IMG/VR virus record: IMGVR_UViG_3300042868_005269
Location: 1 to 61,405 of that record
Source of the DNA: a virus
Direction: 5' to 3' (one strand)
Length of the DNA: 61,405 bases
Both the position numbers and the translations under genes were made by a program. Below, in pieces: positions 4,163 to 56,562 of the stretch. Position 1 is the stretch's first letter; the number at the start of each line of letters is the position of its first letter. Below the pieces are notes generated by a model that worked only from the letters and a program-made list of their open reading frames with translations, did not search any database and had not been told where the DNA came from.

Positions 4163-4666
4163 TCACCCCACCAAGACGTTACGCAATGCTTTGAACAGTG
4201 CGATGGCTTGATGCACAGTCAGCTTGTCGATGACATCGTTCGGTGACCACTCTTTAACCTCCGGGGTAGGCTCTGCAACGGGCGCTGCTTTGCGAGTGAT
4301 GGTGACGATCTTGCGTTGCTGTGCTTGAGGCTTCTTGGCCAGCGCCTTGATTGCCCTAGCTGACTTGATCGGCGTGTACTCATTCATCGTGACATAGAGC
4401 AAGTGTGCGCTCTCGCGCATCATGCCTTGCTTGCACATCTGCCCAAGCAGGGAGGTCACAGAGCTTGACTTAAACCCTTGCGTACCCAACGCAAGAGCGA
4501 CCTCTTTGCGGGTCTTGCCGGGGTTGTCTCGCACGTAGTCGAACGTGATGCGGGTCACGTTGTTGGTCACAGTGAAGTAGGGCTTGGCGGACTCGGGCAC
4601 AGGGGGCGAGGCAGGCGGCTCCCAATCGTCGAGGGCTTGGCGTAAAGCAGTTGCGATATCAGGCAT
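4163..4666 (-). CDS. Putative winged-helix DNA-binding protein, 167 aa
   Basis: A central part (about residues 38-95) reads like a winged helix: ITFDYVRDNPGKTRKEVALA, then LGTQGFKSSSVTSLLGQM, then CKQGMMRESAHLLYV. A basic linker rich in Lys and Ala follows, and then a short C-terminal helix pair. A small phage transcription or replication regulator is a reasonable inference. The start has AAGGAGAACCTC directly upstream. No family name is recognised. Confidence 0.7.
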   Translation of the reverse strand: MPDIATALRQALDDWEPPASPPVPESAKPYFTVTNNVTRITFDYVRDNPGKTRKEVALALGTQGFKSSSVTSLLGQMCKQGMMRESAHLLYVTMNEYTPIKSARAIKALAKKPQAQQRKIVTITRKAAPVAEPTPEVKEWSPNDVIDKLTVHQAIALFKALRNVLVG

Positions 4667-5138: not shown

Positions 5139-5264
5139 TCACTCCAAGTAAAGAAACACGGCCATGAAGATGGCCAACAATAAAAATATGATGCGCTCAC
5201 CTTTGTCGGTGATGGGCTCGCGGTACGTGGGGATGGGCTTGGCTGGGCCTGTGTATCGTTTCAT
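5139..5264 (-). CDS. Small membrane protein, 41 aa
   Basis: Hand-translated mini-gene. A polar, proline-rich N-terminus (MKRYTGPAKPIPTYREP) is followed by one membrane segment, IIFLLLAIFMAVFLYLE, at the C-terminus. GAGGGG lies 6 bases upstream, and the ATG overlaps the stop of the upstream gene as ATGA. It is the second tiny membrane protein of the early cassette; its role is unknown. Confidence 0.6.
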   Translation of the reverse strand: MKRYTGPAKPIPTYREPITDKGERIIFLLLAIFMAVFLYLE

Positions 5265-5572
5265 TTGAACCCCTCTGCTTTGGCTATTGCATCGCGGGCT
5301 GCGTCAAACGCCTGCACGATCTCGTCGTCCCTGTCAGGGTCGTAGCAGTTGTCCATCATGGCGTACAGTGCCGCCAGTAGGTCAGGTGCAGCGGCCATCA
5401 AGCAAGCGTTTGCCTTGGCATCCTTGAGCGTAGTGCGCTTGTCTCCTTTGACCCGAGCAAGGGGTGCAAAGCCCCCGGACTCGCACGAGACTAGGAACTC
5501 CCCGTTGTGGCCCTCGCGGTAGTGCCAAGGGCCGTCTGTGTAAAAACCTTTGCGGTTTGGTGCGTCGTTCAT
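5261..5572 (-). CDS. Conserved phage protein of the GPW / AAAPDLL family, 103 aa
   Basis: Belongs to a common small phage family of unknown function: an N-terminal DGPWHYRE segment and a C-terminal NACLMAAAPDLLAALYAMM helix. A paralogue lies at 6766-7077 in the same cassette. CAAGGAGATAG precedes the ATG. It follows the first copy of the GTGATAC palindrome. Confidence 0.75.
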   Translation of the reverse strand: MNDAPNRKGFYTDGPWHYREGHNGEFLVSCESGGFAPLARVKGDKRTTLKDAKANACLMAAAPDLLAALYAMMDNCYDPDRDDEIVQAFDAARDAIAKAEGFK

Positions 5573-5593: not shown

Positions 5594-5620
5594 GCTGGTG
5601 ATACACCACGTATCACCAGC
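5594..5620. repeat. GTGATAC palindrome, copy 1
   Basis: Perfect inverted repeat with 11-base arms, GCTGGTGATAC and GTATCACCAGC, around a 5-base loop. It lies directly after the stop of the metallopeptidase gene and before the next start. Five related copies occur between 8.5 and 12.7 kb and none elsewhere that I could find. It could act as an RNA hairpin that stops or protects transcripts, or as a protein operator. There is no T-run after it in the leftward direction. Confidence 0.75.
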
Positions 5621-5627
5621 GGGTTGA

Positions 5628-6752
5628 TTACGCGGCGTAGGACTGGTCGAATATCTCGGCCAGCACTGCTGTGGGGTCATAGGTCACACTGTTCTTGAGC
5701 GCGTTGGCAAGCACCATCTCGTCGATTTTGTTGCGGTCGATCAGGCGCTCGGCCATCTCTGGGTCTTCGGGCCACACAGACTCACACATCAGCTCTATGA
5801 GCCACTGCTTGGAGCCAGCTTGCGCATCGTACAAAGCCTCCTGAAGCTCGATGGTGTACGAGTCATAGTCGTAGTCGTCATCATCAAGGTGATGCCACTT
5901 AGTCCAGTCGCTTGCATAGGCAGAACTGACACCCGTTGTCGATGGGGTATACCAAGAGGAGTAGTCCATGTACTCAACCACAGTCGGGTCGCGGTCAGTG
6001 GGCAGGGAGTCCCAGTCAATCAGGGCCACGCGGTCGGCCAGTGCTTGGAAGTGGATGATGTCGAGCGACTCCTTGTCGCTGTGCTCAGAGTAGTAGCCCA
6101 CGCTGATGTTGGTGCACTCGGGTATGACCTCGATGAACTCGGCCGTGTCGGTGTACACCCCTGTGTTGTCGGGCAGATACATCAGCGTCATGTCATCGTT
6201 GAGCGCATCACTCAGGGCATCGGCAAACGCATCGGAGCAGCAGCGCCCACGGCCTTGGTGTGTGATCACGCTGTCGATACCCCTGCGGTCAAAGGCAATG
6301 GCCCGGTCGAACTCGGCCAGTAGCTTGGCGTCATGCTTGGCCAGATGCGTAGCCCCGATACCGCCGCACTCCTCACCTTGTGTGAAGATGTAGTAGGCAG
6401 GCACACCGCTGTGCATCAGGTGCATGAGCATCGCCACACCCGCGCCATCATCGGCCCCCAAAGCTGCACCGTCAGCGTACCAGTAGGTAGGCGTCTGCTT
6501 GATCTTGTTGGGGCCTTCCTTGCGGTGCACAGTGTCAACGTGTGCAACGAACAGCGTCCGGTTGGATGCATTAAGGCGTGTGTCCACGTGCAGGTTGCCC
6601 GCCTTGTCGCGCTTGATGCGTGCATCAGCAGGGACACGATCTTCTAACCAGTCAGTCAAGCGGCGTGTACCCTCGCTGTTGTGTGGGCGCATCATCGACA
6701 GCGCACGGGCAAGGGTCTTGTACAAGATGGATTGTTTGTTGAGTGTAGTCAT
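5628..6752 (-). CDS. M20/M28-like zinc metallopeptidase, 374 aa
   Basis: Predicted cytoplasmic di-zinc amino- or carboxypeptidase-like enzyme. The metal-binding set of these families is visible: AHVDTVH (His71, Asp73), GADDGAG (Asp101), GEECGGIGA (Glu127 as base, Glu128 as ligand), FDRRG (Asp155) and YSEHSDKES (His224). No signal peptide is seen, so it would act inside the host cell. After the catalytic core, roughly residues 245-320 are rich in Asp and Tyr (DDDDYDYDSY), which is unusual. The start has GAAGGAGAAAC upstream. It lies among early unknown genes rather than lysis genes, which suggests host takeover or peptide turnover, but that is inference. Confidence 0.88.
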   Translation of the reverse strand: MTTLNKQSILYKTLARALSMMRPHNSEGTRRLTDWLEDRVPADARIKRDKAGNLHVDTRLNASNRTLFVAHVDTVHRKEGPNKIKQTPTYWYADGAALGADDGAGVAMLMHLMHSGVPAYYIFTQGEECGGIGATHLAKHDAKLLAEFDRAIAFDRRGIDSVITHQGRGRCCSDAFADALSDALNDDMTLMYLPDNTGVYTDTAEFIEVIPECTNISVGYYSEHSDKESLDIIHFQALADRVALIDWDSLPTDRDPTVVEYMDYSSWYTPSTTGVSSAYASDWTKWHHLDDDDYDYDSYTIELQEALYDAQAGSKQWLIELMCESVWPEDPEMAERLIDRNKIDEMVLANALKNSVTYDPTAVLAEIFDQSYAA

Positions 6753-6765
6753 GGATGTTTCTCCT

Positions 6766-7077
6766 TCAGAATGTTAATGTTGCTTTGGCGATGGCGGCGT
6801 GGGCTTTCTCTACCCAAGGTGCTTGCCGCTCGTCGTCTTGTTCGCTGTCAATGAACGGCATGAAGTATTGCAGTACCTCCAGCAAGTCAGGTGCGGCGGC
6901 GATCAGTACGGCGTTGGCTTGCCAGTTCACCAGTCGTTCGTCGTCGTCGGTACAGGCAATCAGTGGATGCCATTCGTCGCCATCCTCATGGCGTACTTTC
7001 TGTTCGGCGTAGATGTGCCGCCCTTGGTCGTTGAATTCAGTGCCGACGTACCACGGCCCCGGTGTGTGTTTGTTCAT
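6766..7077 (-). CDS. Conserved phage protein, paralogue of the gene at 5261-5572, 103 aa
   Basis: Has the same layout as its paralogue: HTPGPWYVG at the N-terminus and NAVLIAAAPDLLEVLQYF before a final helix ending EKAHAAIAKA. Length is also 103 residues. Function unknown. GGAGAAACCAA precedes the ATG, which overlaps the previous stop as ATGA. Confidence 0.75.
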   Translation of the reverse strand: MNKHTPGPWYVGTEFNDQGRHIYAEQKVRHEDGDEWHPLIACTDDDERLVNWQANAVLIAAAPDLLEVLQYFMPFIDSEQDDERQAPWVEKAHAAIAKATLTF

Positions 7078-8498
7078 TTGGTTTCTCCATCAGTTTCGTT
7101 GGTTGCTTCTTCAGTCTCTGGCTCAGGCGCATTGTCCGGGTGGTACAGGGAGCCGTCTATCTCTACGTTGTCGGTGTCGTCGGTGTACCAGTTGTTCGAC
7201 TCCTCGCATCTCCAGCAGTCATCTTTGAGCTCGTACTCATGCGTGTCCTCGGTGTAGCAGATGTCATCGTCCTCGTTGTGGTAGTACGCATCACAAGACT
7301 CAACATACACAGCGTTGTCACTGTGCGTGTAGTCGCCGTCATGCAGCTCCACGATGTCGTTGTCGCCAAGCCACTCGCTGTCGTACCAGTCACCCTCTTG
7401 CGTCTGCACTGCGTTCTCGTTGTGCACGTAGTACTCGTGGCGTCTGCGGCCATTCACCCTCGTGTAGTTGTCGATGCAACACGGGCCGACTGTACTGTCG
7501 CCGCCGTAGCCGATCGAGTAACTGTCGTCCTCGTCCATACCCTCGCCGCAGTCATCGCAGGTACAGGTGTGGCCGTTGATGATGCCGCTGGTACTGCACG
7601 CCTCGTACCCATCGTATTGGCTGATGCGGAAGGTGTCGTCCTCCTCGACAACGTGCTGACTACCACCGTCGATGTACGGCATCAAGTACCCCTCACGGCG
7701 TAGCGGATAGCGCATGATGTGGATGTGGTCAGGCCAGCCGCGCCACTTGGCATAACCCAAGCCCTTGAGATACGCCTCGATAGCCTCGTCAGCACCTGAG
7801 TGCGAGCTGTACTCACGCTCTCGTTTGTATGAGCGCACGAACCCCTTGCCGTCATCGCTCTCGTGCACAAGGCAGCGACCCAGCACCATGCCGTCAGTGT
7901 CAGTCCGCACAGCCATGCCCCAGCCAAGCGATGGGTCGTACACCTCATAAGGGTGGCGCTCTTGCTTGTCATGGCACAGGATGTCGAAGCTGCTACTCAT
8001 ACATGAGCGAGGCCCGTGTATGACTGCATGAACCATCTTGTCCATCTCCTTGGTGATGATGGTCGAGCCACCATACGTGTACTTGGCACCGATGTCCCGG
8101 ATCAGGTTCGATGGTGCGTCAGGGAAGTGACGCGTCAAGTACTTGCCGATGGTGGTCACGACAGCCTTGGCATCGCTGTCGCCGTTGTGCATAGCCGCTT
8201 GCTCGTTGCGTGTGTAGGCTATGCGGTTGGGGTCAGTCAGCGCCTTGTGCGGCCACTCAAGCAACAGTTGCTGCCAGTCCTCGGCACGATGCTTGTACTC
8301 GGTCATCATGTCGAACACAGCAGGGTGCAGTTGATGGCGTTCGCGCTGTTGCTTGAACCACGTGCGGCCCTCATACACAAGGCGGTAGTTGCCGTAACCG
8401 ATACGCTCATGCACCCCGTCAGAGACGATGCGTGCGGAGGCGAAGAAGATGTAGTCCATGAAGTAGTGTGCTTCACGTGAGTCTTTCCATGTAGGCAT
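7074..8498 (-). CDS. Cys/Asp-rich conserved phage protein, 474 aa
   Basis: I do not know its function. The central part (about residues 150-270) has a segment seen in many phage proteins of unknown role: GPRSCMSSS, HPYEVYDPS, GMAVRTDTDGMVLGR, then SYKRERE and a helix ending LKGLGYAKWRGW. The C-terminal 170 residues are strongly acidic and contain repeated short units with Cys pairs (CTCDDCGEG, CCIDN, ESCDAYYHNEDDDICY, CWRCEESNNWYTD). These look like repeated small metal-binding or beta units. The ATG at 8498 has GGAGAAAGCAAA in front; the longer frame to 8579 runs into the palindrome and is not preferred. Confidence 0.75.
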   Translation of the reverse strand: MPTWKDSREAHYFMDYIFFASARIVSDGVHERIGYGNYRLVYEGRTWFKQQRERHQLHPAVFDMMTEYKHRAEDWQQLLLEWPHKALTDPNRIAYTRNEQAAMHNGDSDAKAVVTTIGKYLTRHFPDAPSNLIRDIGAKYTYGGSTIITKEMDKMVHAVIHGPRSCMSSSFDILCHDKQERHPYEVYDPSLGWGMAVRTDTDGMVLGRCLVHESDDGKGFVRSYKREREYSSHSGADEAIEAYLKGLGYAKWRGWPDHIHIMRYPLRREGYLMPYIDGGSQHVVEEDDTFRISQYDGYEACSTSGIINGHTCTCDDCGEGMDEDDSYSIGYGGDSTVGPCCIDNYTRVNGRRRHEYYVHNENAVQTQEGDWYDSEWLGDNDIVELHDGDYTHSDNAVYVESCDAYYHNEDDDICYTEDTHEYELKDDCWRCEESNNWYTDDTDNVEIDGSLYHPDNAPEPETEEATNETDGETK

Positions 8499-8570
8499 TT
8501 TGCTTTCTCCAGTTTCAGATTTTAGGAAGTGATGGGTATACCGGGATCGGTCGCCACCCATCAAGGCGCT

Positions 8571-8589
8571 GTGATACATCCTGTATCAC
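8571..8589. repeat. GTGATAC palindrome, copy 2
   Basis: Inverted repeat GTGATACA / TGTATCAC with 8-base arms and a 3-base loop, placed five bases after the stop of the gene ending at 8594 and before the start at 8498. It has the same core as the other five copies. Confidence 0.75.
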
Positions 8590-8593
8590 GGAT

Positions 8594-8821
8594 TCACTCA
8601 ACGACAACAGTCCAGCCCATCGCCTCGATGACTCGCTTAAGGGATGGGTCTGGCGTCATGCCAACGATGATCGTTGCTACCTTGTCGGTGTGGTTGATAC
8701 GCACCATCGTCATTGAACGCGGCACCATCCACACACCGCCATCCTTGACGGTGTCGAACATGTTGCGTGTCCACTTGACGGCGTTGCTCATGCCTGCCTT
8801 GGTGTCGAGGTCGTAACTCAT
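8594..8821 (-). CDS. Hypothetical protein, 75 aa
   Basis: Unknown small protein, MSYDLDTKAGMSNAVKWTRN with a beta-rich middle (GGVWMVPRSMTMVRI) and a C-terminal VIEAMGWTVVVE. The ATG at 8821 overlaps the upstream stop as ATGA and was preferred to the longer in-frame start at 8863, which covers the neighbour. Confidence 0.65.
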   Translation of the reverse strand: MSYDLDTKAGMSNAVKWTRNMFDTVKDGGVWMVPRSMTMVRINHTDKVATIIVGMTPDPSLKRVIEAMGWTVVVE

Positions 8822-9054
8822 TTGCGTGCTTTCTTCTTTGGCAGTGTGAATGTGCCGAGCCACTCAGCGCCCTCGACTTGAGGGCAGTACATCTTGATCT
8901 CGTACTCGGCATCGTGTGGGCCGGGCACCATGTACAGGTTGAATGTGTACCCGTCAGCCTCCATCAGTTCGAGCAGTGCAGGCAAGTCTCGCGTCTCGTT
9001 GGTCGTTGCCCACATAGCGCAGGACGAGGCGTAGAAGTGTTGGTTCTCTTTCAT
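8818..9054 (-). CDS. Hypothetical protein, 78 aa
   Basis: Unknown. Contains TRDLPALLELMEADGYTFNL and a basic C-terminus (LPKKKARK). AAAGGAGAAATGTA precedes the ATG, and the start overlaps the upstream stop in a TAATG arrangement. It belongs to the coupled early run. Confidence 0.65.
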   Translation of the reverse strand: MKENQHFYASSCAMWATTNETRDLPALLELMEADGYTFNLYMVPGPHDAEYEIKMYCPQVEGAEWLGTFTLPKKKARK

Positions 9055-9263
9055 TACATTTCTCCTTTGATGATCTGATCCATGCGGTGCTGGCGGTAGA
9101 ACTTGCAGAACAAGTCGTCGAACGCCGTGAGTAGGCGCTCTCTGTTGGTGGTGTCCGCTACGTAGAACGCTCGGGCGATGTGCCCTGCGAAACTGCCGCC
9201 CTCGCGCTCCATGAGCAGTGCCGCACTGAGCAGCATGTCGTGGTCTAAGTCCATTGCTTTCAT
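9054..9263 (-). CDS. Conserved small phage protein, 69 aa
   Basis: Resembles a small phage family with HIARAFYVADTTNRERLLTA and FDDLFCKFYR, of unknown function. AAAGGAGAAAGCAA precedes the ATG, which overlaps the stop of the next gene upstream as ATGA. Confidence 0.68.
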   Translation of the reverse strand: MKAMDLDHDMLLSAALLMEREGGSFAGHIARAFYVADTTNRERLLTAFDDLFCKFYRQHRMDQIIKGEM

Positions 9264-9439
9264 TTGCTTTCTCCTTTGGTTAATTCACACAGATCATTGA
9301 GGCGCATCAGCGCCACCTCCAGCCTGCCTCGCACATCTTCGCGCTTGGGCAAGTCATCGAGGTTGTTCAAGGCGTAGCGCAGTTGCGCCCGCATGTAGTC
9401 CAGCTCGATGTGCCACTCGTGCTCTTGTCCTTCAGTCAT
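9260..9439 (-). CDS. Hypothetical helical protein, 59 aa
   Basis: Hand-translated frame just under common size limits. It starts MTEGQEHEWHIELDYMRAQL and continues as two amphipathic helices (RYALNNLDDLPKRED, RLEVALMRLNDL). AAAGGAGATAAGCAA precedes the ATG, and the stop overlaps the next start. No family recognised. Confidence 0.65.
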   Translation of the reverse strand: MTEGQEHEWHIELDYMRAQLRYALNNLDDLPKREDVRGRLEVALMRLNDLCELTKGESK

Positions 9440-9456
9440 TTGCTTATCTCCTTTGG

Positions 9457-9723
9457 TTAAAGTGTGCAGTACCAGCGATGGGCGCTGATACGGCGGGTCT
9501 TCAGGCGTACGCCTGCGGTCTGGCGCAGATGGCTGTTGAACATCTTGACCAAGACGGACTCAACACCACCGCTTGGCATGGCGCGCAGTTGGTCGCTCTC
9601 GATGATGACAAAGCCTTGCGCTTTGAGCGTCTCGTGCAGTGCCTGCCAGTCATGCACCACCTTGGTAGGCACTGGGGTAGGTGCGGCGGTGTACGCCGTG
9701 TTGGGTATATCGTCGAGTCTCAT
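9457..9723 (-). CDS. Hypothetical protein, 88 aa
   Basis: Unknown. A proline/threonine-rich N-terminus (TAAPTPVPTK) leads into HDWQALHETLKAQGFVIIES and a basic C-terminus with RLKTRRISAHRW. AGGAGAAAGCAA precedes the ATG and the start overlaps the upstream stop (ATGA). Confidence 0.65.
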   Translation of the reverse strand: MRLDDIPNTAYTAAPTPVPTKVVHDWQALHETLKAQGFVIIESDQLRAMPSGGVESVLVKMFNSHLRQTAGVRLKTRRISAHRWYCTL

Positions 9724-9926
9724 TTGCTTTCTCCTAAAAGTTCATCACGCCATGCGTTGAGGTCAGAGAGAACTTTCTCTCTCGTACCCCAGTAGCCCAT
9801 CTGTTTCAGCATTGCGTATGCAGTCGGGCTTTTGCTTCGGCTCATGCCTAGCATCTCCAGCTTGAGCATCTGGCGCAGTGCCAGTAGGCGAGCCGCATCT
9901 ATTTGGTGTCCGGTTAGTACAGTCAT
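9720..9926 (-). CDS. Hypothetical helical protein, 68 aa
   Basis: Unknown, nearly all helix: IDAARLLALRQMLKLEMLGM, then SPTAYAMLKQMGYWGTREKV. It may be a small protein-interaction module. GGGGAGAAACCGA precedes the ATG, and it overlaps both neighbours by four bases. Confidence 0.63.
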   Translation of the reverse strand: MTVLTGHQIDAARLLALRQMLKLEMLGMSRSKSPTAYAMLKQMGYWGTREKVLSDLNAWRDELLGESK

Positions 9927-10186
9927 TCGGTTTCTCCCCAGACAGTGAAGCTGTGGATGGGCTCGCCGATGCTGTCCGTCCAGCCTGCTTTGTAGACGTC
10001 CACGTGCAGGTCGCTGTCTTTCTTGGCGTGGCCTGAGTAGTCAGCGCCAGCAAAGTTGATGTCGTACTCATCCCACACGACCCAGTCATCGGCCGTGGCC
10101 AGCGTGTCGCTGTGAAAGTTACGCTCGACAATCAGTGCCAAGCGATAGCCCTCGCAGAAGGCCCGCAGTTCTTGCAGTGTTCTCAT
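9923..10186 (-). CDS. Hypothetical protein, 87 aa
   Basis: Unknown. An N-terminal helix (LQELRAFCEGYRLALIVERN) is followed by acidic beta-rich segments (DWVVWDEYDINFAG, DSDLHVDVYKAGW). AAGGAGATAAGTAA precedes the ATG. No known family. Confidence 0.65.
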   Translation of the reverse strand: MRTLQELRAFCEGYRLALIVERNFHSDTLATADDWVVWDEYDINFAGADYSGHAKKDSDLHVDVYKAGWTDSIGEPIHSFTVWGETE

Positions 10187-10198
10187 TTACTTATCTCC

Positions 10199-10351
10199 TT
10201 ATTGGTTGATGTAGACCAGCACCATCTGTGCTTCTTGGCGAATGTCCATAGAGGCGAGCGTTGACTCGGCCTCATCCCTGTCCATGGGCGGGGTCGAGTG
10301 CGCTTGGCCTCGGGAGTCCCACCACTGAACGATCCATGCTTGTGTTCTCAT
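10199..10351 (-). CDS. Hypothetical protein, 50 aa
   Basis: Small protein MRTQAWIVQWWDSRGQ, ending ASMDIRQEAQMVLVYINQ, with predicted beta strands. The start at 10351 has GGAGAAAGCA upstream; the longer frame to 10438 runs into the palindrome. Function unknown. Confidence 0.6.
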   Translation of the reverse strand: MRTQAWIVQWWDSRGQAHSTPPMDRDEAESTLASMDIRQEAQMVLVYINQ

Positions 10352-10428
10352 TGCTTTCTCCAGTTTCAGATGCCGCCCTGTTTGGGGTAGGCTCGACCAT
10401 GCGGGCGGCGTTGCATGGTTGAGTGGTT

Positions 10429-10449
10429 GGTGATACACGGTGTATCACC
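10429..10449. repeat. GTGATAC palindrome, copy 3
   Basis: Palindrome with 10-base arms, GGTGATACAC and GTGTATCACC, around a single base. It lies three bases after the stop at 10453 of the 305-residue gene and before the start at 10351. It is the most symmetric of the six copies. Confidence 0.75.
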
Positions 10450-10452
10450 GGG

Positions 10453-11370
10453 TTATTTGATGAGGTTCAATAGCGTCTGCGCCAGAGGTTGCCTGTCCAT
10501 GTGCGCCAGTATTCGTTTCTGTTGGGCCGCTAGGTCTGCGGCCAGTGCCCTAGCTGCGGGGGGTGCTGTCATATCTGCCGGGGACAGGCGCTCTGCCAAT
10601 GATGGTTTGGATGCCCTCAAGATGTTGCCCCTGTTCTTGGGCGGCTTGGTCTTGACCGCCGACACCATCTGCTTGTCGTCGTCATCGCGCATGAGTTCGG
10701 GAACCATCTGCGCCCAGTGGTTGGGCACATGGGCGTTGTCATCCAAGGCGTTCACTCGCTCGATGGCCTTGCGTAACAGCAACTCTTTGCGTGCCAGCTT
10801 CTCGTTCTCGGGGTCTTCGTCCAGTCTTTCGATGGTGGTCTCAAGCGTGGCCCGTGTGTAGCGCAGTAGCCGGGCTTTGCGTTTGATGCACAGGCTGATC
10901 GGGCTTGTGCGTTGGAAGGGTTGTTTGAACTTGGCTCGGTCACGGGGCGGCACTTCGTCAGCGGCCACACGGAATGCTTCTTTGATTCGGTCGGGCACAA
11001 AGTCTGTCCAGTGGGTGTGCTCGGGCAGTTCACGGTCAATGCGCCGTATCTTTTCCAGCTTCTCGTACAGTTTGTTAAGCACTGCGAAGTAGTCGGCCAC
11101 GAACTCCTCACGCTCAGGCGCTGGGGTCTTGGTCTTGTAGCGCACCATGCTTCGCACAATCCGGCGTTCGTGTTGCAAGGCTTCGATCACCTCGCCCCAC
11201 TGCTTGTCGGACTCTTTGCGCTGGCGCTTGGCGATGCTCTGGGCACTGCGTTGCCGCTTGATTTGTGCGAGGGTCAGGTCTGCCATTTCGGGGGATTGGC
11301 CTTCGCTGAATAGCTTGGCCCGTATTTCACGGTAGGCCCAGCCTGCGTATTTACGGTAGGGGTCGCTCAT
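10453..11370 (-). CDS. Hypothetical charged helical protein, 305 aa
   Basis: Unknown protein. It is strongly charged and helical, with basic stretches (QIKRQRSAQSIAKRQRKE, CIKRKARLLRYTRATLE) and a Pro/Ala-rich C-terminal part (SPADMTAPPAARALAADLAA). There is no membrane segment. Basic character and position beside the putative origin fit a DNA- or RNA-binding role, but no motif proves it. AAAGGAGCATCC precedes the ATG. It is the first gene after the 405-bp non-coding region and may be driven from a promoter there. Confidence 0.75.
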   Translation of the reverse strand: MSDPYRKYAGWAYREIRAKLFSEGQSPEMADLTLAQIKRQRSAQSIAKRQRKESDKQWGEVIEALQHERRIVRSMVRYKTKTPAPEREEFVADYFAVLNKLYEKLEKIRRIDRELPEHTHWTDFVPDRIKEAFRVAADEVPPRDRAKFKQPFQRTSPISLCIKRKARLLRYTRATLETTIERLDEDPENEKLARKELLLRKAIERVNALDDNAHVPNHWAQMVPELMRDDDDKQMVSAVKTKPPKNRGNILRASKPSLAERLSPADMTAPPAARALAADLAAQQKRILAHMDRQPLAQTLLNLIK

Positions 11371-11524
11371 GGATGCTCCTTTGTTGATGGGGTGAACGGA
11401 TTGTAGCTCAGATTACTTCGATGTAATCACGCACAGACAGAAAACTGTCCGACCTTACTTCGCTTGGACGCAAAATTGGACAGTGGGAACCCGCATGGTT
11501 GCTGGTGTTGCCGTGTTTGTGTCC

Positions 11525-11554
11525 ACTCTAATGGTGTTTTTTACAGGGAGTCAA
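11525..11554 (-). promoter_or_regulatory. Candidate sigma70-like leftward promoter
   Basis: Read on the minus strand: TTGACT (11554-11549) as a -35 box, an 18-base spacer, then TAGAGT (11530-11525) as a weak -10 box. It would drive the 305-residue gene and the cassette below it. The -35 matches five of six consensus bases and the -10 four of six, so this is a weak call. Confidence 0.3.
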
Positions 11555-11651
11555 CGCCTGAACTTATTTTTTATTTAACAAAGCTGTGCCAACCTGCATG
11601 AAAGCAATTCTTCTTATCTATATCTTATTTAATATATATATATAGAGGGGA

Positions 11652-11703
11652 CAAGAAAAGACAAACGCCTTTATGAATCAACGACTTACGCTGTCTTTTC
11701 TTG
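11652..11703. repeat. 12-base perfect inverted repeat
   Basis: CAAGAAAAGACA (11652-11663) and TGTCTTTTCTTG (11692-11703) are exact reverse complements, separated by 28 bases. It stands beside the alternating-TA tract in the non-coding region. It may be a cruciform or a pair of binding sites. Confidence 0.65.
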
Positions 11704-11752
11704 GGGAAACGCGATGGAGGATCGGACAGTCCCAAAAAGCGTTAACTAAAGT

Positions 11753-11773
11753 GGTGATACGCCGTGTATCACC
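11753..11773. repeat. GTGATAC palindrome, copy 4
   Basis: GGTGATAC / GTATCACC with 8-base arms and the loop GCCGT, just three bases after the stop of the gene at 11776-12000. The whole 21 bases are identical to copy 5 at 12312-12332. Confidence 0.75.
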
Positions 11774-11775
11774 GA

Positions 11776-12000
11776 TCAGGAGCCGTGCATGGCTTTCTTT
11801 TGCCTGATGTTGACTTCGTGCCAGAGCTGGGACATGGATGCACAGGGTATCGAGACGGTCGTGCCTACCATCGCCACGCTTGCGACCCAGTAGGGGTCGT
11901 ACTTGCCACGGGGGTAGTGGATTTGAGCGCACCAGAGTGCGCCTGCTTGGTCACGCCATTGGGTGAGGGTTTCGGTGGTGGGTTGCTTGAGGTTACGCAT
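11776..12000 (-). CDS. Hypothetical protein, 74 aa
   Basis: Unknown. It contains LTQWRDQAGALWCAQIHY and ASMSQLWHEVNIRQKKAM. GAAGGAGAAACTTCC precedes the ATG. It is an early gene in the leftward block with a palindrome directly after its stop. Confidence 0.63.
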   Translation of the reverse strand: MRNLKQPTTETLTQWRDQAGALWCAQIHYPRGKYDPYWVASVAMVGTTVSIPCASMSQLWHEVNIRQKKAMHGS

Positions 12001-12013
12001 GGAAGTTTCTCCT

Positions 12014-12199
12014 TCAGTTGGTGTGGTGGATGCGGACGTAGCGGGCCATGGCCTTGAGCATGACCTTCTGGGGGACGCAGTACTTGATGGCTACCGCCTT
12101 GGCCACATAGGGCAGTTCGTGCGCTTGGATGTGGCACAGGATGTGGTGCAGTTCGTGGATGATGCGCTTGGCATCACGGGTTTGCAGGTTGTTGTGCAT
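12014..12199 (-). CDS. Small His-rich protein with an HELHH motif, 61 aa
   Basis: Reads MHNNLQTRDAKRIIHELHHI, then LCHIQAHELPYVAKAVAIKY and MARYVRIHH. HELHH fits the HExxH zinc-protease pattern inside a helix, and a second HE follows 9 residues later, but the protein is too short for a normal metalloprotease. It might be a tiny zincin-like remnant, a metal-binding protein or chance. GGAGAAACTTCC precedes the ATG, the same leader as the gene below it. Confidence 0.6.
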   Translation of the reverse strand: MHNNLQTRDAKRIIHELHHILCHIQAHELPYVAKAVAIKYCVPQKVMLKAMARYVRIHHTN

Positions 12200-12279
12200 G
12201 GAAGTTTCTCCGATTGGTTTTGGCTATGAAGTCGCCGCCGTGATTGTTTAAGCCACAGGCGGTTAGACATGGGGAGGAA

Positions 12280-12302
12280 CAACGGGCCAGCCACGCCCGT
12301 TG
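12280..12302. repeat. 8-bp GC-rich hairpin between early genes
   Basis: CAACGGGC and GCCCGTTG form a perfect 8-base stem around a 7-base loop. It lies in the 135-base gap 12200-12334 between two leftward genes, next to palindrome copy 5. In the leftward direction it is followed by TTCC rather than a T-run, so it may be an attenuator or RNA-processing signal rather than a strong terminator. I see no convincing gene in the gap. Confidence 0.5.
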
Positions 12303-12311
12303 AGTTTGCTT

Positions 12312-12332
12312 GGTGATACGCCGTGTATCACC
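12312..12332. repeat. GTGATAC palindrome, copy 5
   Basis: GGTGATAC / GTATCACC with loop GCCGT, two bases after the stop at 12335 of the first early gene. All 21 bases match copy 4. Confidence 0.75.
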
Positions 12333-12334
12333 GA

Positions 12335-12772
12335 TCACTTCAAGGCGTTCAGCAAAGCCATTGCTTGCTTGATCTGCTCTTGCAGAGTCTCGCCCTCGAA
12401 GTTGCCAAGGAAATCCATCGCCATAGCCTTGGCCGCCGTGCTGATGCGCTGTTGCTTGGCAGGGGCTTGGGCTTTCTCAGGGGTGAACCACACCATGACG
12501 TTGCGTCTCCACGATTGGAAGGCCGCGCCGTGGCGTGACTCACGCGTGGATTCTTCGCCGGTGTAGAACACGGCAGTCCCCGCCGTGTTCCATGTGTAGT
12601 TGCAGCCGTACTTCGTAGCATGGACTTTCGCAAGCTCCTCAAGAAGCGTGATACATGGTGTATCACCAAGTTCTTTCGCCGCCGCTTGCATGGCGTCCCC
12701 GTATGAGATGCCCGCAGTAAGGAAGTCTGAGTAGGCTTTGACGGCGGTTTGGATTGTGGTCAGTTTTTTCAT
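12335..12772 (-). CDS. First gene of the leftward block, hypothetical protein, 145 aa
   Basis: Unknown protein. The N-terminal half is helical (AVKAYSDFLTAGISYGDAMQ) and the middle has YGCNYTWNTAGTAVFYTGEE and WRRNVMVWFTPEK. The C-terminus is helical and Ala-rich. The ATG at 12772 has GGAGAAAATCC upstream; the extension to 12823 has no ribosome binding site. As the first gene after the divergent control region it is likely expressed earliest. A copy of the GTGATAC palindrome (12648-12666) lies inside its coding sequence, encoding GDTPCIT. Confidence 0.7.
   Translation of the reverse strand: MKKLTTIQTAVKAYSDFLTAGISYGDAMQAAAKELGDTPCITLLEELAKVHATKYGCNYTWNTAGTAVFYTGEESTRESRHGAAFQSWRRNVMVWFTPEKAQAPAKQQRISTAAKAMAMDFLGNFEGETLQEQIKQAMALLNALK
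12648..12666. repeat. GTGATAC palindrome, copy 6 (inside a gene)
   Basis: GTGATACA / TGTATCAC with a TGG loop, within the coding region of the 145-residue gene. It is the only copy inside a reading frame, which argues that the DNA or RNA site itself is selected, or that it arose by copy-and-paste. Confidence 0.7.
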
Positions 12773-43675: not shown

Positions 43676-43696
43676 ACGCCAGCGCCATGCTGGCGT
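43676..43696. repeat. Hairpin before the giant gene
   Basis: ACGCCAGC and GCTGGCGT form a perfect 8-base stem with a GCCAT loop, ending 24 bases before the start of the 3102-residue gene. There is no T-run. It may damp or process the transcript. Confidence 0.5.
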
Positions 43697-43719
43697 ACCT
43701 ACAATTCAGGAAGCAGGCT

Positions 43720-46700
43720 ATGCCCATTTACAGCGTACAGGGTCCAGATGGACGTATTTATGATGTGGAGGGGCCTGCTGGCGCTTCCGAAGAACAGATT
43801 CTGGGGGCGGTGCGCCGTCAGTTTTTGGCAACTCCGGCCTCTGCGCCAGAAAAAAAGGGCTCCGGGTTGGGCGACATTGCTCGCTCATTTGGTCTGGGGG
43901 CGGTTGGCGCAACGAAAGCTATTACCAGTGCGGCGGGGGCGGATAACGAGGCAGCGCGTGCGCTCGGTAGAGCCGGTGAAAGTCTGCAAGAAGGCTTTAG
44001 CGCAAGCCGCAAAGCTGAGTTGCAGGCACAAGCCGAGCGCATGAAGAAAGCCGAAGCGTCTGGCTCAACCCTTGAAGAAATTAAAGCCGGTGCGCTGAAC
44101 GTGCTGGAAGCGCCGTTGCAGTCTGCCGCGCAGGCCGTGGGCTCATTTGCTCCACTCATTCCCACAATGTTCTTGGCCAAGCCTTTGGCGGCTTTGGGTC
44201 TGGGGGCACGCGCCATCATGGGTGTTCGTGGTGCTATCGGGGGAGCGCAGGGTGCCGGTGCAGTCAAGCAAAATATCTACGACACAGTGCTGGAAGCGGA
44301 AAAAACCGACGGTAAGACAGATGAGCAAGCTGCCGCTGCCGCCTCGCGGGCTCAGTCCTACATCAGCGAAAACGCAGACCAGATTCTTCTGGGCACCGGT
44401 CTTGGTGTTGCGGCAGGTACTAGCGGTGTTGAACGCATTTTGCCCGGCGGCGTGCGCGGTGCTGCAAGCAAGACGCAAGAAGCACTCGCCAAGCGTCTGG
44501 GCGCACGCACAGCCTCGGGTATCACAACAGCCGCAGCCGAGATGCCGCTGGAAGGTCTGCAAGGCGGACAAGAACGGCTTGCCGCTAACCTTGCACTGCA
44601 ACGCACAGGCCGTGACGTAGATGCGTTTACCGGCGTAGCAGGTCAAGCCACGCAAGAAGCACTGACAGGCGCACTGGGGGCGGGACCCATCGGCGCACTT
44701 GTACCAGATCGCCGTGCAGAAATTGCAGAAAAAGAGCGTCAGCAAAAAGAGCAAGCCGACGCTGTGGCCGCAGCCGAAGCTGCCAAGAACACCCCTGAAG
44801 CCCTGCGCCAGCTTGATACAGAGTTCCGCACTGCAGACCAGCAGCTCAAAGCGTTGAACGCGCAGCTCACCGCAAACAGACCCAAGAAGGGGGCCACAGA
44901 CGAGCAAAAGCAAGCGTATGACACGCTCAAAGCCCAGCGCGATGAGTTGTTGACCACGTACAAACCCCTGCGCCAAGAGTTCATGCAGCGCAAAGAAGCA
45001 ATCGACGAGCTTCAAATGGCTGAGCAGTCGGCAATTGAGGTTGCAGCAGCGCAAGGTCAGGCTGCGGCAAAGCTGCCACTGCCGTCCGACATCCCCGGTG
45101 CACAGCCGTTCCAGTTGTCCGACACCTCACGTTTGATGAACGACTACGACACCATGCGCGGCCAAGTGTCCGCGTTGGAGCAGCAACTGGCTGCGGGCCC
45201 TGATCTGGATACCCAGACACAACTGACGCAGCAGCGCGGGCAACTCATGGCGCGTATGAACGAGATGGCTCCGGTCATTGAGGAACGTGGCGGGGTCACC
45301 GACACCGAGCCGGAGTTTGCCAAGAAAATGGCTGCGGCCGAAAAAGAACGCCTGCGCCTGCTTGAGATTGGTGACTTTGATGCTGCGGCAAACCAAGCCG
45401 AGAAAGTCCGTGACCTGCAAACACGCGCTCCCTTCTTGCAAGAGCTGAACGACTTCCGCACAAAAGCAGGGCAGAACCGGGAGCTGACGCTGGAAGAGCC
45501 TGCACAGCCAGAAGGCGCGGGCGTTAAGTACGTGTCGCCTACGGGCAAACCAGTCACGCCTTTCCCAGCAACGGCTACGGAAGCTGCACCGCTGCCTGCC
45601 GACAAGCCCGAAGAACTGGCGGCAGTCCAGACTGCCCAGACCAACGTAAACGCTGCGCAGACTGCGCTGGATGAGGCCGTCAAGACCAAAGACACAACCA
45701 AAATCTTTGGCGCAGTGGACGCGCTCAACCAAGCACAAAACACAGTGGCTCGGGCACAAGAGGATGTGGGTCGCCCACTACTCAAGCCCGCAGTGCTGGA
45801 CATTTTCAGCCCCGCCAACTTGTTTCGCACAGCTTTTGCAAACAACGATACAAAACTGCTCAATGACCTTGCGTCCCACGCCGATACTACGGCGCTGCGG
45901 GCAGCCCTCAACCAGAACCTCAGTGAGCGCGAGAAGCTGGTTAACGTGTTGGAGAACCGCGCTGGTGTTGGTGGTGATGAAAAAGCCATCGACCCCCGTA
46001 CCGGCGAGCCCGGCGAGAGGCTCAAGAGCGTCAAGCGCGAACGCGCTGACTTGTTCTCCCAACTGTACGACGCTCGTCAACAGGCGTTGTTCAAGAACGG
46101 CCAAAACCTTGAGACCATAGAAAGACCTCGCACCGAGCTTGCAGAAGACTTTCAGCTTGATAAAACCGGCAAGCCTGTAGTTGGCGAAGACGGCAAACCT
46201 GTAGTCGTGCGGCAATACGAAAAACCCGTGCTTGATAAAAACGGCCGTCCGGTTATGGACACCGTTCGCTTACAGGACATCTACGACCAAGGTGGCCCCG
46301 CCGCAGTTGAGTACGAGCGCGTCATGCAAGACGTTGAGGACCTGTCCAAGAAAGTCACGACCAAGCAAGGCAACGCCAAGAAGTCTCTGTACGAGCAGCT
46401 CATTGATTTGGCTGCGCAGCACTCTGCGTTGGTGGCGCAAATGGAATCGGGCATTGCTACGCCCAACATGCGGGAGAAGACCACTGCGTTGCAAGCCAAG
46501 ATGGGTAAAGGCGAAGCCCCGGCTGAGCGCCAGATGGATGCCAAGGAAAAGTTTGACCTCCAGCGCCGCATCGACACGCTGGTTAACAAGTACCGCCTGA
46601 CCGAAGGCCAAATTGCTCCCGTCCGTGACCAGATCACGAAGTTGTACAACAGCCTGTACAAGACCACGCCGCTTGAGAAGACCAGTAAGGCTGCGGACAG

Positions 46701-49700
46701 AAAAGCCACTGAGGCCGAAGAGCGCAAAGAACGTGCTAAGCCTCTAAAAGAAATTGCCGACAAGTACGGTATGAAGTCGCCTGAGTACAAAGAGGCTTTG
46801 GCAAAACAAGTTGCTGAGAGTAAAGCCGCAGGGCGTGTGCCTAAAGTATCAGTGTCACGCACAGCCCAGACAGCCGCACGGCTTGCCAAGGGCGATGTGC
46901 GCAAAGAAGCCGAAACGTCAAAACAAATGCGCGACTTAGCGATTGAGTTGGGGCAGCGCGAACCGGAATATGTGCGGATGCAAGCCAACGCAGAAAAGCG
47001 TTTAACGGCTTTGGAGAACAAATACGGTAAAGGCGATCCGCAAGTACGCGCCTACAGCACGCAAGTGATGGATGCGTTAGAAGCAAAAGCCGTTGGCTTG
47101 GGTAAACAAACGCCCGAGTACAAGGCCACACTGAAAGAGCAGGTCGAATACGTCAAAGGCGCTCTGTCCCAGAGCAAGCAGACAGTGCCAACCAAACGTA
47201 CAGGGCCAGTTACGCGCACGCAGTCATCCGCGCCTACACGCCTTGTCAGTTCTTCACCTGAAAGTCGTGAGCAGACGGACATGGAGAACAAAGCAATTAA
47301 CGCGCAGCGCCGCGCTATTAAAGATGCACGCGAAGCGCTGCGGTCTGAAAAAGAAGACCGTGACTACCTGCGCGGTGTTGAGACTGAAAGCCTTGAGTTG
47401 AGTCGTGACGTAGTTGCGTTGCTTGAAAAAGGTGATGTGCGCGGCGCACTGCTGCTGATCAGTAAAGACCCGGCTGTGGACAAGTTTAGCCAAGCTGTTG
47501 CTGCGCGTCTTGAGCCGTTCCTTGATGTCACCAAGGTTGAAATTAAAAACAACATGCGCTCTGACGACGGCAAAGAAGTCTTAGGTGCCGCCACGAGCAA
47601 GTTGATTGAACTCAACCGCAATGGCGGTCTGTCCGTTGAGACGTTGCTTCACGAAGCCACACACGCCGCAGCCGAACGCGTTGTGCAGTTGTCTGAGACA
47701 AATCCTAACGCACTTACCAAAGAGCAGAAGCTGGCCATCAACGAGCTCAAAGCGTTGCACGCCCGCGTTAAAAACGACAAAGGCATCACCAGCAAAAACG
47801 CCAAGAGCAGCTTGTCGGAGTTTGTGGCCGAAGTCATGTCCAACCGCAACTTGCAAAAGCAACTGGCCCAACGTCAGTGGCGCTTGGTGGATGCGTGGAA
47901 GGGCGTTAAGTCCATCATCATGCGCATGTTGGGCATGCAAAAAGTGGAGACCATGTTTGGCGCGTCTGTTGTGGCGGTCGATCAATTGTTCGTCCCTGCA
48001 AGCGCCAAGGTCGGTAAGGGTCGCAAAGAGACACGCGTTACCCGCAGCTTGTCGGCTAAGGACATTGCTGCGCTGGACGACGGCAGCAACTCCATGAAAC
48101 AATTTGCTGACCAGTTCGGCCAACTTATCAAACAAAAAGACCGCACACCCGCCGACGTTGAGCGCATCGGTGCCCAAGTGATTGATGACATGCTGAACAG
48201 TGTGTCGCCTATGCCGCGCAACACGGGGGCACCTAGACCCAGAAGCGAAGCAGAAAAACTTCAAGCAGAGCACGATGCAAAGTCTGTTGTGGCGCTTCCA
48301 ACAGCAGACTCGTTGGACTACAAGGGTATGGTTACCATGTCTGACGGCAAAGTGTACGACGAGAACAACCCCCTGCACTACGTTGAAGCAACCCCCGCGA
48401 CGTTTGCTGCGTTGGAGGCTGTGAACAACCCGTCACTGCGCAAACGCGAAGCGGAATCAATTGCGTCCCAACGCAAAACAGACTTCCTCAACTTGATAAG
48501 CTACTTGATGGGGAACTACGAAAACTACACCACGGCTGAAACAGCGCTGGTGCTCAAAGCTGCGGCCAAGTACGGCGTCATCTCCGGCAGCAACGGCCGT
48601 TTGAAACTTGTTGAGATCGGCAAAGACAACCGCCACAACATTGCAGTGCTGGGCAAAGAAACAGCAGACGCAATCATCGAGCAGTTGCGTGCGGGCAAAG
48701 GCCTCAAGCAAGCCTTCTTGGATGGTTTGCAAAAAAACGCAGACGACAACGCCAAGAACAACGAGCGCAAGAACGGTTGGAAGAAGTTTGATCAGGCCGA
48801 CCAAGAATACCTTCCCAACGCATACCCTGACGACGAAGTCGATGCTGCCATTTTAGATGCGGGTTTGAGTGATGAGGACATCCGCGATAACGGTTGGGAC
48901 AAAGAAGCTACGATTGGGTGGCTTATTGAAAACGGCTATCTTGAAGATCGCACGGGCGGCAAAATTTTTGAAGAAGCTGCCATTGCGCTGAACGAAGGTT
49001 GCGCAGGCACGCCATGGTGCACGGGCGCAAGCGTAAGCACTGCCCGCAGCCAGATTGAAGGGGGTGACTTTTACGTTTATTACAACAAGGGGCGTCCCGA
49101 AGTTGCGGTGCGCATGAATGGTAAAGACCGAATTGGTGAAATTCGCGGCAACAACCCGAACCAAGCGCTTGATCCTGCGCAGCAACAAATTGCTGCTGAC
49201 TTTTTACGGGCAAAAAAGTTTGAAAAAGCAGACCAATACCTTTCCGAGTTTGAGCGCCGTGAAGCGTTGGTTAAGTTGGCCAAAGGCGAAACAAAACTGG
49301 GCGTCAGTGATTTGCTGGGCGATAAAAGCCCGTTGGACAGCAACGGCAAAGTGGACGACTACGAAATAAACAGATTGTTGAAGTTCCGCACAATCGACGG
49401 TTACGGCAACCGCCCAAAACCTGTAGACAGCGTCGTAAAGTTTTTTGGTCAGCAGTACCTTGACGCGGCAATCCGTGCGTACGAAAACAACGAGTTTGTG
49501 TTTTCAAAATTAGACGTGGATGAAGATTCAAATACTAAACCTGTTGAGGTGGAGTTTGCCGGTAAAAAGTACACGGCTTCCCCTGCGGACGTTAAGGCAC
49601 TTAACCGGGTTACTGTTAGCGTGTACGCTTACGGGTCAAAACCAGCGGCTCCTGTAGTACTTCCAAAACTTGCAAAGCTGGGGGAGCTCAGTTTCTTTCG

Positions 49701-52700
49701 CGGTGAACTAGATTTGCCCGCGTTGCAAACGGTGGATACAGTCACTTTCTTCAATGAAGTTTCCAGACTTAATACCGTTGCAAGAATAAAAATGCCGACA
49801 GACGCACGCGTTAACAAAGTGCAAAGCTACGGTAAAAAAGTAAGCGGCATTATTGAAGGACCGCAGACTATCAACCTTGTAACGCTTACGCGTGAAGGCG
49901 GCGCGTTGACGCTGGATTTGCCGGACACTAAGTACGTCGCCGTTTTGGACGACCCGAAAGGCGTGGCTAGGCACTTTTCGTCTGAAGCGGATAACGCCAT
50001 TGATAACCTGCTGAAAGCTGACGGTCTTGATTTTGCCGACATCATGCGTGCAAAACGCGGCGAAGCCACGATGGCACAAAACGCTGCATACCAAAAAGTT
50101 GCAAAGCAGCAAATTAAAAAGTTTTTTGATGCGTTGGAAAAATCTTTTGGGTACACGGCGTACGAGCACGCATTGAACAATGGGGACACGGCCGAAGCGT
50201 TCAGGATTACGAACGACTACCGAAAGGCAATTCGCAACGCCGTAGACGATGTGCTGGAGCTTAACAAGTACTCCCGCGAAGCCTTTGACAAAATGGCAAA
50301 GGTCGTCAAAGACTCCACCGGCGCAGAGGTGGCGTACCCCGAAGGGCAGCTGATTGCGCCCAAGCGTGTGGGCGATCCACCGTACGGCGCGGAGTTTACT
50401 GAAGCGCCTGAACAGCGTCGCTTTGCGCCCAAAGATGTGGGTGTGCAAGAGGACAAGAAAGGCTTGTTCTCGTTTGCCCGTAAGCAAGTCAACTCGTCGT
50501 CTGTGGTTGCGCGTGAGCCGGGCGTTGTGGACACCTTGCTTGGCAACATCATGGGCTTGGCTGGCCGCGTGCAGTTTATCGACCAGTACGCAGCTTTGGA
50601 AGCCGCTACTAAGAAGGGCTTGAGCGCAGGCGTCATCAGCAGCTTGGAGGCAACCAACGCCAACTACCTGCTGCGGTTTGGCCAGCAGCGCAGCCAGTTC
50701 TCAGGGCAGTTCCTGACCAACGGTCCGGTCAAGGCGGAGATCACACGCAAGAACGGCGGCACTGAAACGCTGTACCGCAGCACCAAGGGCACGTCCATGG
50801 TGGACGTTGCGCAGGCACTCAACAAATCCAAGCTGTCCAACGACGTGGAGCAAGAGAACATGTTCACGTTGTACGTGGCAGGCAAGCGTGCGCAGCAAGT
50901 TGGGTGGGACAAGCTCAACTTTTCCAGCCCTACGCAAGCCAAGGCTGAGTACGACGCTGTCATCGCACGACTGAACAACAACGACACTGCCAAGAAAGCG
51001 TTTGAAGAAGCGGCCAAGCTGTACCAAGAGTACAACGCAGGCTTGCTGGACTTCCTTGCGCAGACAGGCGCGTTGTCGGACAAGAAGGTAGCCGAACTCA
51101 AAGCGATCAGCTACGTGCCGTTCTACCGGGTGAACAACAACGGTGAAGTGCAGTTGATGGTGGACAAAGAGCGCCCTGTGCGGATTGCCAATATCAAGGA
51201 CCAGCCGCAGCTCAAAGAGCTGATTGGCGGCAACACAGCCATCTTGCCGATCTTTACCAGCGCAGCGCAGAACACATTCATGCTGACTGGCATGGGCCTG
51301 CGCAACCAAGCGGTGAAGGAGACCTCCTTCATGCTGCAAAAGCTGGGCATCGCCAGCCGCGTATCGTCTGGCAACGGCCCGACAGGGGCCAACGTGGTGC
51401 GCTTCTTCAAGAAGGGCGAGCCGTACTACGCGCTGATCGACACCGATGCTTACGGCATTCCGGCTGATTTAATTGTGCGGGGTATGGAGGGCATCAAGAC
51501 AACGCTGCCTGCCGTTATCAAACTGATGGGCATGCCCGCCAACATCTTGCGCTCGTTTGTTGTGCGTAACCCGGCTTACGCTGTGCGCCAGATCATCCGC
51601 GACCCGCTCAACGCATGGATGACAACGGGCACAGACGCTGTGCCAGTGCTTTCGTCTATGAAAGAGCTGGCCAAAATGGTTGCTGGGCGCAGTGATGCCG
51701 AGCGCAAGCTCATGGAGACAGGTGCGATCAGCAGCAACGTCTACAGCGGCGACGATCAGGACATGGCCAAGTTCCTCAAAGACATGTCGGCAGGCAAGTC
51801 AGGTTGGGACAAAGCCACCGCGATGCTGGACACGTTTGCGCTGCAAGGCGACGCTGCTACACGCGCTGTGATCTACAAAGACTCGCTGGCCAAAGGCATG
51901 TCGGAGCAAGAAGCTCTGCTGCGCACACTGGAGTCCATGAACTTTAGCCGCCGGGGCGTGTCTCCAAGCATGCAGGCGCTGTCCACGCTCATCCCGTTCT
52001 TCAACGCACAGGTGCAGGGTCTGGACGTAATCTACCGAGCCATGAAAGGCGACATGCCGTACAGCCAGCAGTTGGACATTCGGGGCAAGATGGTGCGCCG
52101 TGGGTTGATGCTGGCCGCAGGCACGATTGCTTACGCCGCTATGATGGAGGACGACGAAGCCTACAAACGCGCCAAGCCTGAAGAACGCCTTGCCAACTGG
52201 TTTGTGTATGTGCCCGGTATTGACGAGCCTGTGCGTGTACCCATCCCGTTTGAAATGGGCTTTTTGTTCAAGGCGTTGCCTGAAGCTGTGTACGCCATGG
52301 CTATGCAAGACGGCAAAGCGGACGCTGCGCTGAGCGGGCTATCCAAACTGGCGTTGCAGACCATTCCGTTGAGCCTGCCGCAAGCCGTTAAGCCGCTGAC
52401 AGAAGCGGTGCTGGGCAAGTCGTTCTACAGCGGCGACATCGAGTCTGTTCGTGAGAAAGACGTATTGGCCACGCAGCGTTACCGCGACAACTCCACAGAG
52501 CTGGCCAAAACAATTGGCGCAGTGACAGGAAACATTGGACTCAGCCCAATCACGATCGACTACCTGATCCGTGGGTACACAGGCGGGCTGGGTATTGCGT
52601 TGGTGCAGTTGGCCAACCCGATACTGGCTCCCGGCGACAAAGCCGAGGTTGCACAGCCCACAACCAAGATCAGCAAACAGCCGTTCATCGGCGGATTGTT

Positions 52701-56161: not shown

Positions 56162-56311
56162 TTACTTGAGGTCGTCTTCGGCTACGTCCAGCAGCGCAGA
56201 GAAGCGCTCATACAGCTCTTTCACGACTTCGGCAGGCACGTTGTAGTTGGCCATGTAGATGTGCGTCAGCAGTTCTTCGTTACTCAGGGTTTCAGGTTGT
56301 ACTCGTGACAT
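56162..56311 (-). CDS. Small hypothetical protein, 49 aa
   Basis: Reads MSRVQPETLSNEELLTHIYM, then ANYNVPAEVVKELYERFSAL, two amphipathic helices with an acidic end. GGAGAAGAAT precedes the ATG at 56311; an in-frame ATG at 56323 has a weaker site. It overlaps the end of the XRE-like gene by 28 bases and may be a partner of the primase or regulator. Confidence 0.6.
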   Translation of the reverse strand: MSRVQPETLSNEELLTHIYMANYNVPAEVVKELYERFSALLDVAEDDLK

Positions 56312-56562
56312 ATTCTTCTCCATGCTTCGTCCGCTGTGTTTGAGGACTGCATTATTGTTAAAAGGGTTTCCACGCGGTGGCGGTACGCGACAAAGACTTC
56401 TGATCCGTTGAACCAGTTGTAGACAGTCTGTCGTGTGACGCCGAGGGCGTAGGCGATTTTGGTGACAGGGAAATCCAAGTGGATAGCCCAACGCCCAAGC
56501 TGGTTGCCCAGAGACTTGGGAGTCTTCATCACGTCGTCAATGATTTTTTGTGAGTAGGCCAT
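56284..56562 (-). CDS. XRE-like helix-turn-helix regulator, 92 aa
   Basis: Small DNA-binding protein of the Cro/XRE type. The helix-turn-helix is TKIAYALGVTRQTVYNWFNG (about residues 34-53). It is the only clear transcription factor of the genome, so it is a candidate to bind the 16-bp TGTCWAGYGYTWKACA sites or the GTGATAC palindromes. The region before its start has no good ribosome binding site, which suggests low expression or a wrong start. Function inferred from fold. Confidence 0.78.
   Translation of the reverse strand: MAYSQKIIDDVMKTPKSLGNQLGRWAIHLDFPVTKIAYALGVTRQTVYNWFNGSEVFVAYRHRVETLLTIMQSSNTADEAWRRICHEYNLKP

Follow-up and report, generated by a model that had tools for sequence, protein, structure and literature searches.

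What purpose do six copies of one palindrome serve in the early genes of a freshwater phage, and which protein, if any, reads them? The window, meaning the whole 61,405-base IMG/VR virus contig IMGVR_UViG_3300042868_005269, had been described in an earlier note, which placed six palindromes in the leftward early cassette and suggested that they were RNA hairpins setting transcript 3' ends, operators of a phage regulator such as an XRE-like protein, or replication-linked sites. All six are present where they had been placed, each as an exact GTGATAC-N5-GTATCAC and all inside that cassette (cores at 5598-5616, 8571-8589, 10430-10448, 11754-11772, 12313-12331, and 12648-12666), while 100 dinucleotide shuffles of the window yielded no copy. 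Beyond this array, the window holds just two half-sites, each standing alone, at 44519 and 60790. The loops of differing length reported by the note did not hold up, as the half-site spacing is fixed at N5 in all six copies and the apparent loops of 1, 3, or 5 bases result from chance pairing of inner bases in some of them.

We treat the six copies as candidate operators, with no strand assigned. Operator 1 (5594-5620; core GTGATAC-ACCAC-GTATCAC with 11-bp arms) lies between the stop of the M28-like peptidase gene and the next gene, and its centre is retained in the relatives G001 and L046. Operators 2 (8571-8589) and 3 (10429-10449) begin 4 nt past the minus-strand stop codons at 8594 and 10453, operator 4 (11753-11773) begins 3 nt past the stop codon at 11776, and operator 5 (12312-12332) begins 3 nt past that of the first leftward gene. 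The spacing to stop codons given previously is corrected to 3 to 4 nt for copies 2 to 5 and to 11 nt for copy 1, or 7 nt if measured from the extended arm. Operator 6 (12648-12666) is indeed intragenic, lying within the first leftward gene (ORF 12335-12772), where it encodes the peptide GDTPCIT.

The same layout recurs in a wider phage group. We gathered 80 related viral loci via the terminase large subunit (TerL) and scanned them blindly for repeated palindromes. A repeated palindrome of its own occurs at matching places in each of about 55 related viral contigs, and in most of the 80 loci the palindromes lie upstream of terS/terL. The types include GTGGGAC, GTGAGAC, GTGGCAC, GGGGACA, AGAGAGA, AGATAGA, GCTGACA, GCGGACA, GCAGACA, GTGGTCA, and GGGGTAC, among others, and have centres of odd (N3) or even (N2) length; the type is uniform inside one phage and unrelated to the TerL phylogeny. 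A clear palindrome family restricted to the early cassette is seen in 8 of 10 near-complete relatives. The near-complete relative G009 has just two to three copies, and G010, whose contig stops at terL with the upstream region absent, has none. Over the whole set, 213 sites fall in 258 kb of early cassette versus 4 in 585 kb elsewhere, and all 4 belong to G011, a circularly permuted contig in which they lie in the same cassette. The absence of copies from the virion block, first remarked in the window, therefore holds across the family. Placement relative to genes is equally regular, with 70% of the 138 sites outside the candidate regulator's own gene lying at most 12 nt past a stop codon, versus 8.6% of random positions, and most sites beginning 3 to 5 nt past it. 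A search of known phages by DNA gave no match; the nearest isolates by TerL are 47 to 53% identical, and four of the five fetched have no such arrays. The literature searched, comprising papers available without subscription, yielded no report of the palindromes of this phage group.

Between close relatives, the palindrome is swapped in place and its flanks are retained. The TerL of L126 is 98% identical to that of the window, yet L126 carries AGATAGA-type sites (AGAGAGA at one), and in a site-by-site alignment the flanks are conserved to within a few bases while the palindrome differs. In one such case, a CAACGGGCGNGGCTGGCCCGTTGTTCCTCCCC element common to both phages is followed by a different palindrome in each; at the place of operator 2, L126 has an AGATAGA-type site between conserved flanks, and at that of operator 3 the palindrome is again replaced between conserved flanks. 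Both arms change, so the symmetry is preserved. Loss of symmetry in close relatives, which would have spoken against selection on the dyad, was looked for, and we found that the sequence changes and the symmetry stays.

Could these sites be mobile or recombination-homogenized repeats with no dedicated reader, converted to the copy arriving with the first gene? Their uniformity in each genome would suit such a process, as would the mosaic phages L156, L144, L132, and L126; L156, for instance, has one GTGGGAC site in the first gene and GTGAGAC sites elsewhere, and from their sequences such mosaics look like transitions between types. However, the arms alone change, flanks within a few bases being kept, and the centre bases are specific to each site and retained at orthologous sites (ACCAC at copy 1 and GCCGT at copy 5 in the window, G001, and L046). 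This persistence argues against copying between sites, as conversion between copies would erase the differences. Moreover, the other cassette genes do not track the type, and we consider homogenization very improbable.

Sites that are perfect inverted repeats and begin 3 to 5 nt past stop codons could equally be RNA hairpins at gene ends, with covarying stems, acting in processing, in stabilization, or as protein-bound RNA, and a GC stem-loop does follow the first-gene site. This stem-loop (CAACGGGC-N7-GCCCGTTG, 12280-12302, minus strand) lies after operator 5, is kept in L126, and is possibly an attenuator or a 3' hairpin. Downstream folding was significant after the first-gene site alone (mean z, -2.05) and not at distal sites, and we rejected a downstream stem-loop as a general partner of the palindromes. 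As for the palindromes themselves, their imperfect stem pairs, read in the transcript sense, comprised 30 G.U, 40 A.C, and 37 others, and thus show no wobble bias; a structured RNA element with a wobble-tolerant stem was rejected on this count and on the lack of any Rfam family match. Within a phage the half-sites keep a constant distance while the bases of the central "loop" are free to vary, and no T-tract was found after the palindromes, which therefore differ from the GC-rich hairpin and T-tract of an intrinsic terminator. In addition, one site lies in a coding region, and the sites of one genome all change together, something that folding by itself would not demand. Altogether, the hairpin suggestion made previously is not supported, and we judge it quite improbable. 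We also rejected a link to promoters, as sigma-70 promoter-like matches, the class covered by our scan, were not in excess downstream of the sites.

If the sites are read as DNA, the reader is expected among proteins that follow the palindrome type. The candidate that emerged is g12335 (12335-12772, minus strand), the first leftward early gene, whose 145-aa product we propose as the cognate DNA-binding protein from its covariation with the type. The protein consists of a variable N-domain (about residues 1 to 95) and a C-terminal helical hairpin (about residues 112 to 144), and the gene was found in all relatives having sequence at that place. Over 51 phages, palindrome distance correlated with N-domain distance (Spearman, 0.48), compared with 0.004 for TerL and 0.07 for TerS, and the partial rank correlation of the N-domain given the C-module, TerS, and TerL was 0.468 (0 of 1,000 permutations). 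The site embedded in the gene does not create this correlation, since typing by sites more than 100 nt beyond g12335 alone still gave a partial correlation of 0.376 (0 of 1,000 permutations). When the comparison was extended to the 7 gene clusters of the cassette with at least 12 members, just g12335 tracked the type well (0.394; 0 of 300 permutations); the cluster ranked second is a frame that overlaps g12335, and a 474-aa protein reached 0.21, a value matched or exceeded in 15 of 300 permutations. Natural swaps are also found. L160 and L158, with a TerL similarity of 1.00, carry AGAGAGA and GTGAGAC, respectively, and have unrelated N-domains; L126 and L136 combine the window's C-module type with another N-domain and another palindrome; and L074 and L100 combine a window-like N-domain and palindrome with a different C-module. 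The site variant hence covaries with a phage-encoded protein, as it does in the Cluster A stoperator system.

Two other proteins of the window, the XRE-like protein (56284-56562) and a winged-helix (wHTH) protein (4163-4666; weak MarR/MotA PHROG matches), both resemble DNA-binding proteins and might own the operators instead, and the latter evolves fast and occurs in most relatives for which enough sequence is available. However, G002 has exactly the same XRE-like protein (100% identity) but the palindrome GGGGACA. Neither the recognition helix nor the domain of the wHTH protein follows the type, and its initial promise reflected fast divergence; in the same 15 phages, its raw and partial correlations with palindrome type were 0.02 and -0.14, against 0.65 and 0.62 for the N-domain of g12335. 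We regard it as extremely unlikely that either of them, or another phage protein, is the reader. A 305-aa protein (10453-11370) was also rejected, as G001, despite sharing the palindrome, yielded no homologue, and as it showed no tracking over 25 phages. Among the interpretations of the earlier note, that of phage-regulator operators gains strong support from the tracking of the N-domain, the RNA hairpins and the XRE-like binder are not borne out, and we found no support for replication-linked sites. The sites are very probably DNA operators of the g12335 product, and we infer from sequence comparison that this protein binds them directly, as a dimer.

The g12335 protein has no noteworthy sequence match in Pfam, PHROG, or PDB, and its AF2 model (pLDDT, 90.5) has no fold match in PDB or BFVD. 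In this model, the GDTPCIT peptide encoded by operator 6 lies in the loop joining helices 1 and 2. The lack of a match to any known DNA-binding family or fold weighs against the N-domain as a reader, and so does its net charge in the window, of only +1. The L132 protein, representing a second N-domain type, was modeled with a pLDDT of 90.1 and an all-helical N-domain, compared with a predicted long helix and beta-hairpin in the window; the C-terminal helical hairpin is predicted to be the same in both. As the two N-domain types differ in predicted topology, it is solely through covariation that this part of the protein is called a DNA-binding domain.

The association was then put to a forward test, with predictions for four N-domain subfamilies written ahead of scanning and new contigs, sharing no 40-mer with the earlier ones in the gene region, typed by script. 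The predictions were correct in 52 of the 61 new contigs with a repeated palindrome, or 53 once a filter artefact was corrected. By subfamily, 17 of 23 matched for GTGNNAC, 21 of 22 for GGGGA, where the prediction left centre parity free, and 14 of 15 for GC[TG]GAC. The single scripted contig of the AGAGAGA subfamily, L316, was scored as a miss; it holds repeated AGAGAGA sites that had been dropped by the two-letter-arm filter. The nine typed loci off the predicted class mostly differed from it by one or two bases (GGGAACA, ACTGACA). No scripted repeated palindrome was obtained in 16 of 38 new GGGGA-class (A4-type) loci, several of them with short flanks, and one GTGNNAC contig had no repeat.

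We propose a model in which the first gene of the leftward early operon would encode a dimeric DNA-binding protein for the palindromes, with an N-terminal domain that would read the half-sites and a C-terminal helical hairpin that would act as an exchangeable module, probably for dimerization or effector contact. As this protein builds up, it would occupy its sites and block or terminate elongating RNA polymerase at gene ends, and this roadblock would turn off g12335 and the early genes as the phage shifts to replication and virion production. After the acquisition of a new N-domain, the sites of the phage would change to match. The roadblock is suggested by sites that (i) lie inside one transcribed operon, (ii) start in the 5' part of the regulator's own gene, (iii) avoid promoters, and (iv) follow stop codons. 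The g12335 protein is probably a modular DNA-binding protein of this kind, acting on its own operon. Operators within an operon could act otherwise, the roadblock being one option, and we put the chance that the protein acts by a roadblock or by early shut-off at about even, or a shade above. For the reading as a whole, that of double-stranded DNA operators of a self-encoded dimeric protein that roadblocks its own operon, the balance tips slightly in favor.

The g12335 protein might use its operators to other ends, such as organizing, tethering, or segregating phage DNA in a centromere-like manner, or labeling the early region for replication or packaging. A centromere- or nucleoid-type system would likewise be consistent with a cognate protein and several dispersed palindromes, and the g12335 homologue adjoins terS/terL in relatives. 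However, TerS does not track the sites, and the preference for places just past stop codons points to transcription. Nor is there a sign of lysogeny that would call for partition, as the window, a possibly incomplete contig, has no integrase or resolvase match (PF00589 or PF00239), and no close TerL relative or prophage copy was found among 84,980 bacterial genomes. On these grounds lysogeny of this phage appears unlikely, and we consider such a role of the operators unlikely as well.

Among known systems, the proposed roadblock comes nearest to the stoperators of Cluster A mycobacteriophages (L5, Bxb1), many short regulator sites that stop transcription elongation; these are asymmetric and oriented, belong to temperate phages in which a monomeric repressor reads them, and diverge with genome distance (PMC6550527, PMC9283540). 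Both systems have repeated short sites within transcribed regions of one operon, and in both the site variant differs from phage to phage and is paired with a cognate regulator (here, a proposed one) with separable N- and C-terminal parts. Unlike stoperators, the sites described here have full or nearly full dyad symmetry and are confined to one cassette, in a phage with no detectable lysogeny genes, and their type is uncorrelated with TerL and follows one protein domain. By analogy, the window's system would operate in the manner of Cluster A stoperators, although it is distinct from them. Cluster O mycobacteriophages have 17-bp dyad repeats (TGTTCGG-N3-CCGAACA, 34 copies in Corndog) that are genome-wide and identical in all members, with no reader protein named in that report (PMC4351075). 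They share with our sites the 7-bp arms around 3 free bases, the many copies concentrated in a leftward operon, and a presence in phages that are not obviously temperate. Unlike the Cluster O repeats, which have no tie to stop codons, the window's sites number six in one cassette, mostly follow stop codons, and are of a type that varies among relatives. The 22-bp intergenic repeats of the T1-like lytic phages TLS and Stevie, likened by their authors to stoperators (PMC11447400, PMC4319613), are likewise repeated intergenic sites of lytic phages, but they are asymmetric and directional. In SPbeta, a repeated intergenic element is read by the master regulator MrpR, which has no classical HTH repressor fold (PMC10516654); unlike those of the window, these sites lie in prophage promoter regions and have a single specificity.

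Our study joins a candidate reader that matches no known family or fold to dispersed early-region palindromes of a kind that had no explanation, like those of Cluster O mycobacteriophages. Closely related phages here supply more than 15 naturally occurring protein-site specificities, together with natural domain swaps, which makes it directly testable how a regulator and all of its dispersed sites shift specificity together, and the N-domains would newly add to the supply of orthogonal DNA-binding domains. A more speculative and rather doubtful extension is that a lineage with no detectable lysogeny has evolved a typing akin to immunity groups, with at least two unrelated DNA-reading folds on one common C-module. 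If so, the first early protein would shut off early transcription of a co- or superinfecting phage of the same type, rare operator types would be favored, and an N-domain swap with in-place rewriting of all operators would create new types. Immunity-like typing in phages that do not lysogenize thus becomes testable as well.

Elsewhere in the window, the virion block contains a 3,113-aa ORF with an LPD38 domain (43687-53028), and two phrog_1273 paralogues (5261-5572 and 6766-7077) flank the M28-like peptidase gene, the second of them with a weak, below-cutoff match to a Tad2-like anti-Thoeris domain. Outside the group, no g12335 homologue was found in Planktothrix phage Pag-Yong1 (L210; OL906435.1), which carries 16 copies of GGTTCA-N3-TGAACC, most of them in a leftward block and several located 2 to 3 nt past a TGA stop and about 22 nt ahead of the next start; judged by its sequence, this phage appears to be an independent instance of this layout.
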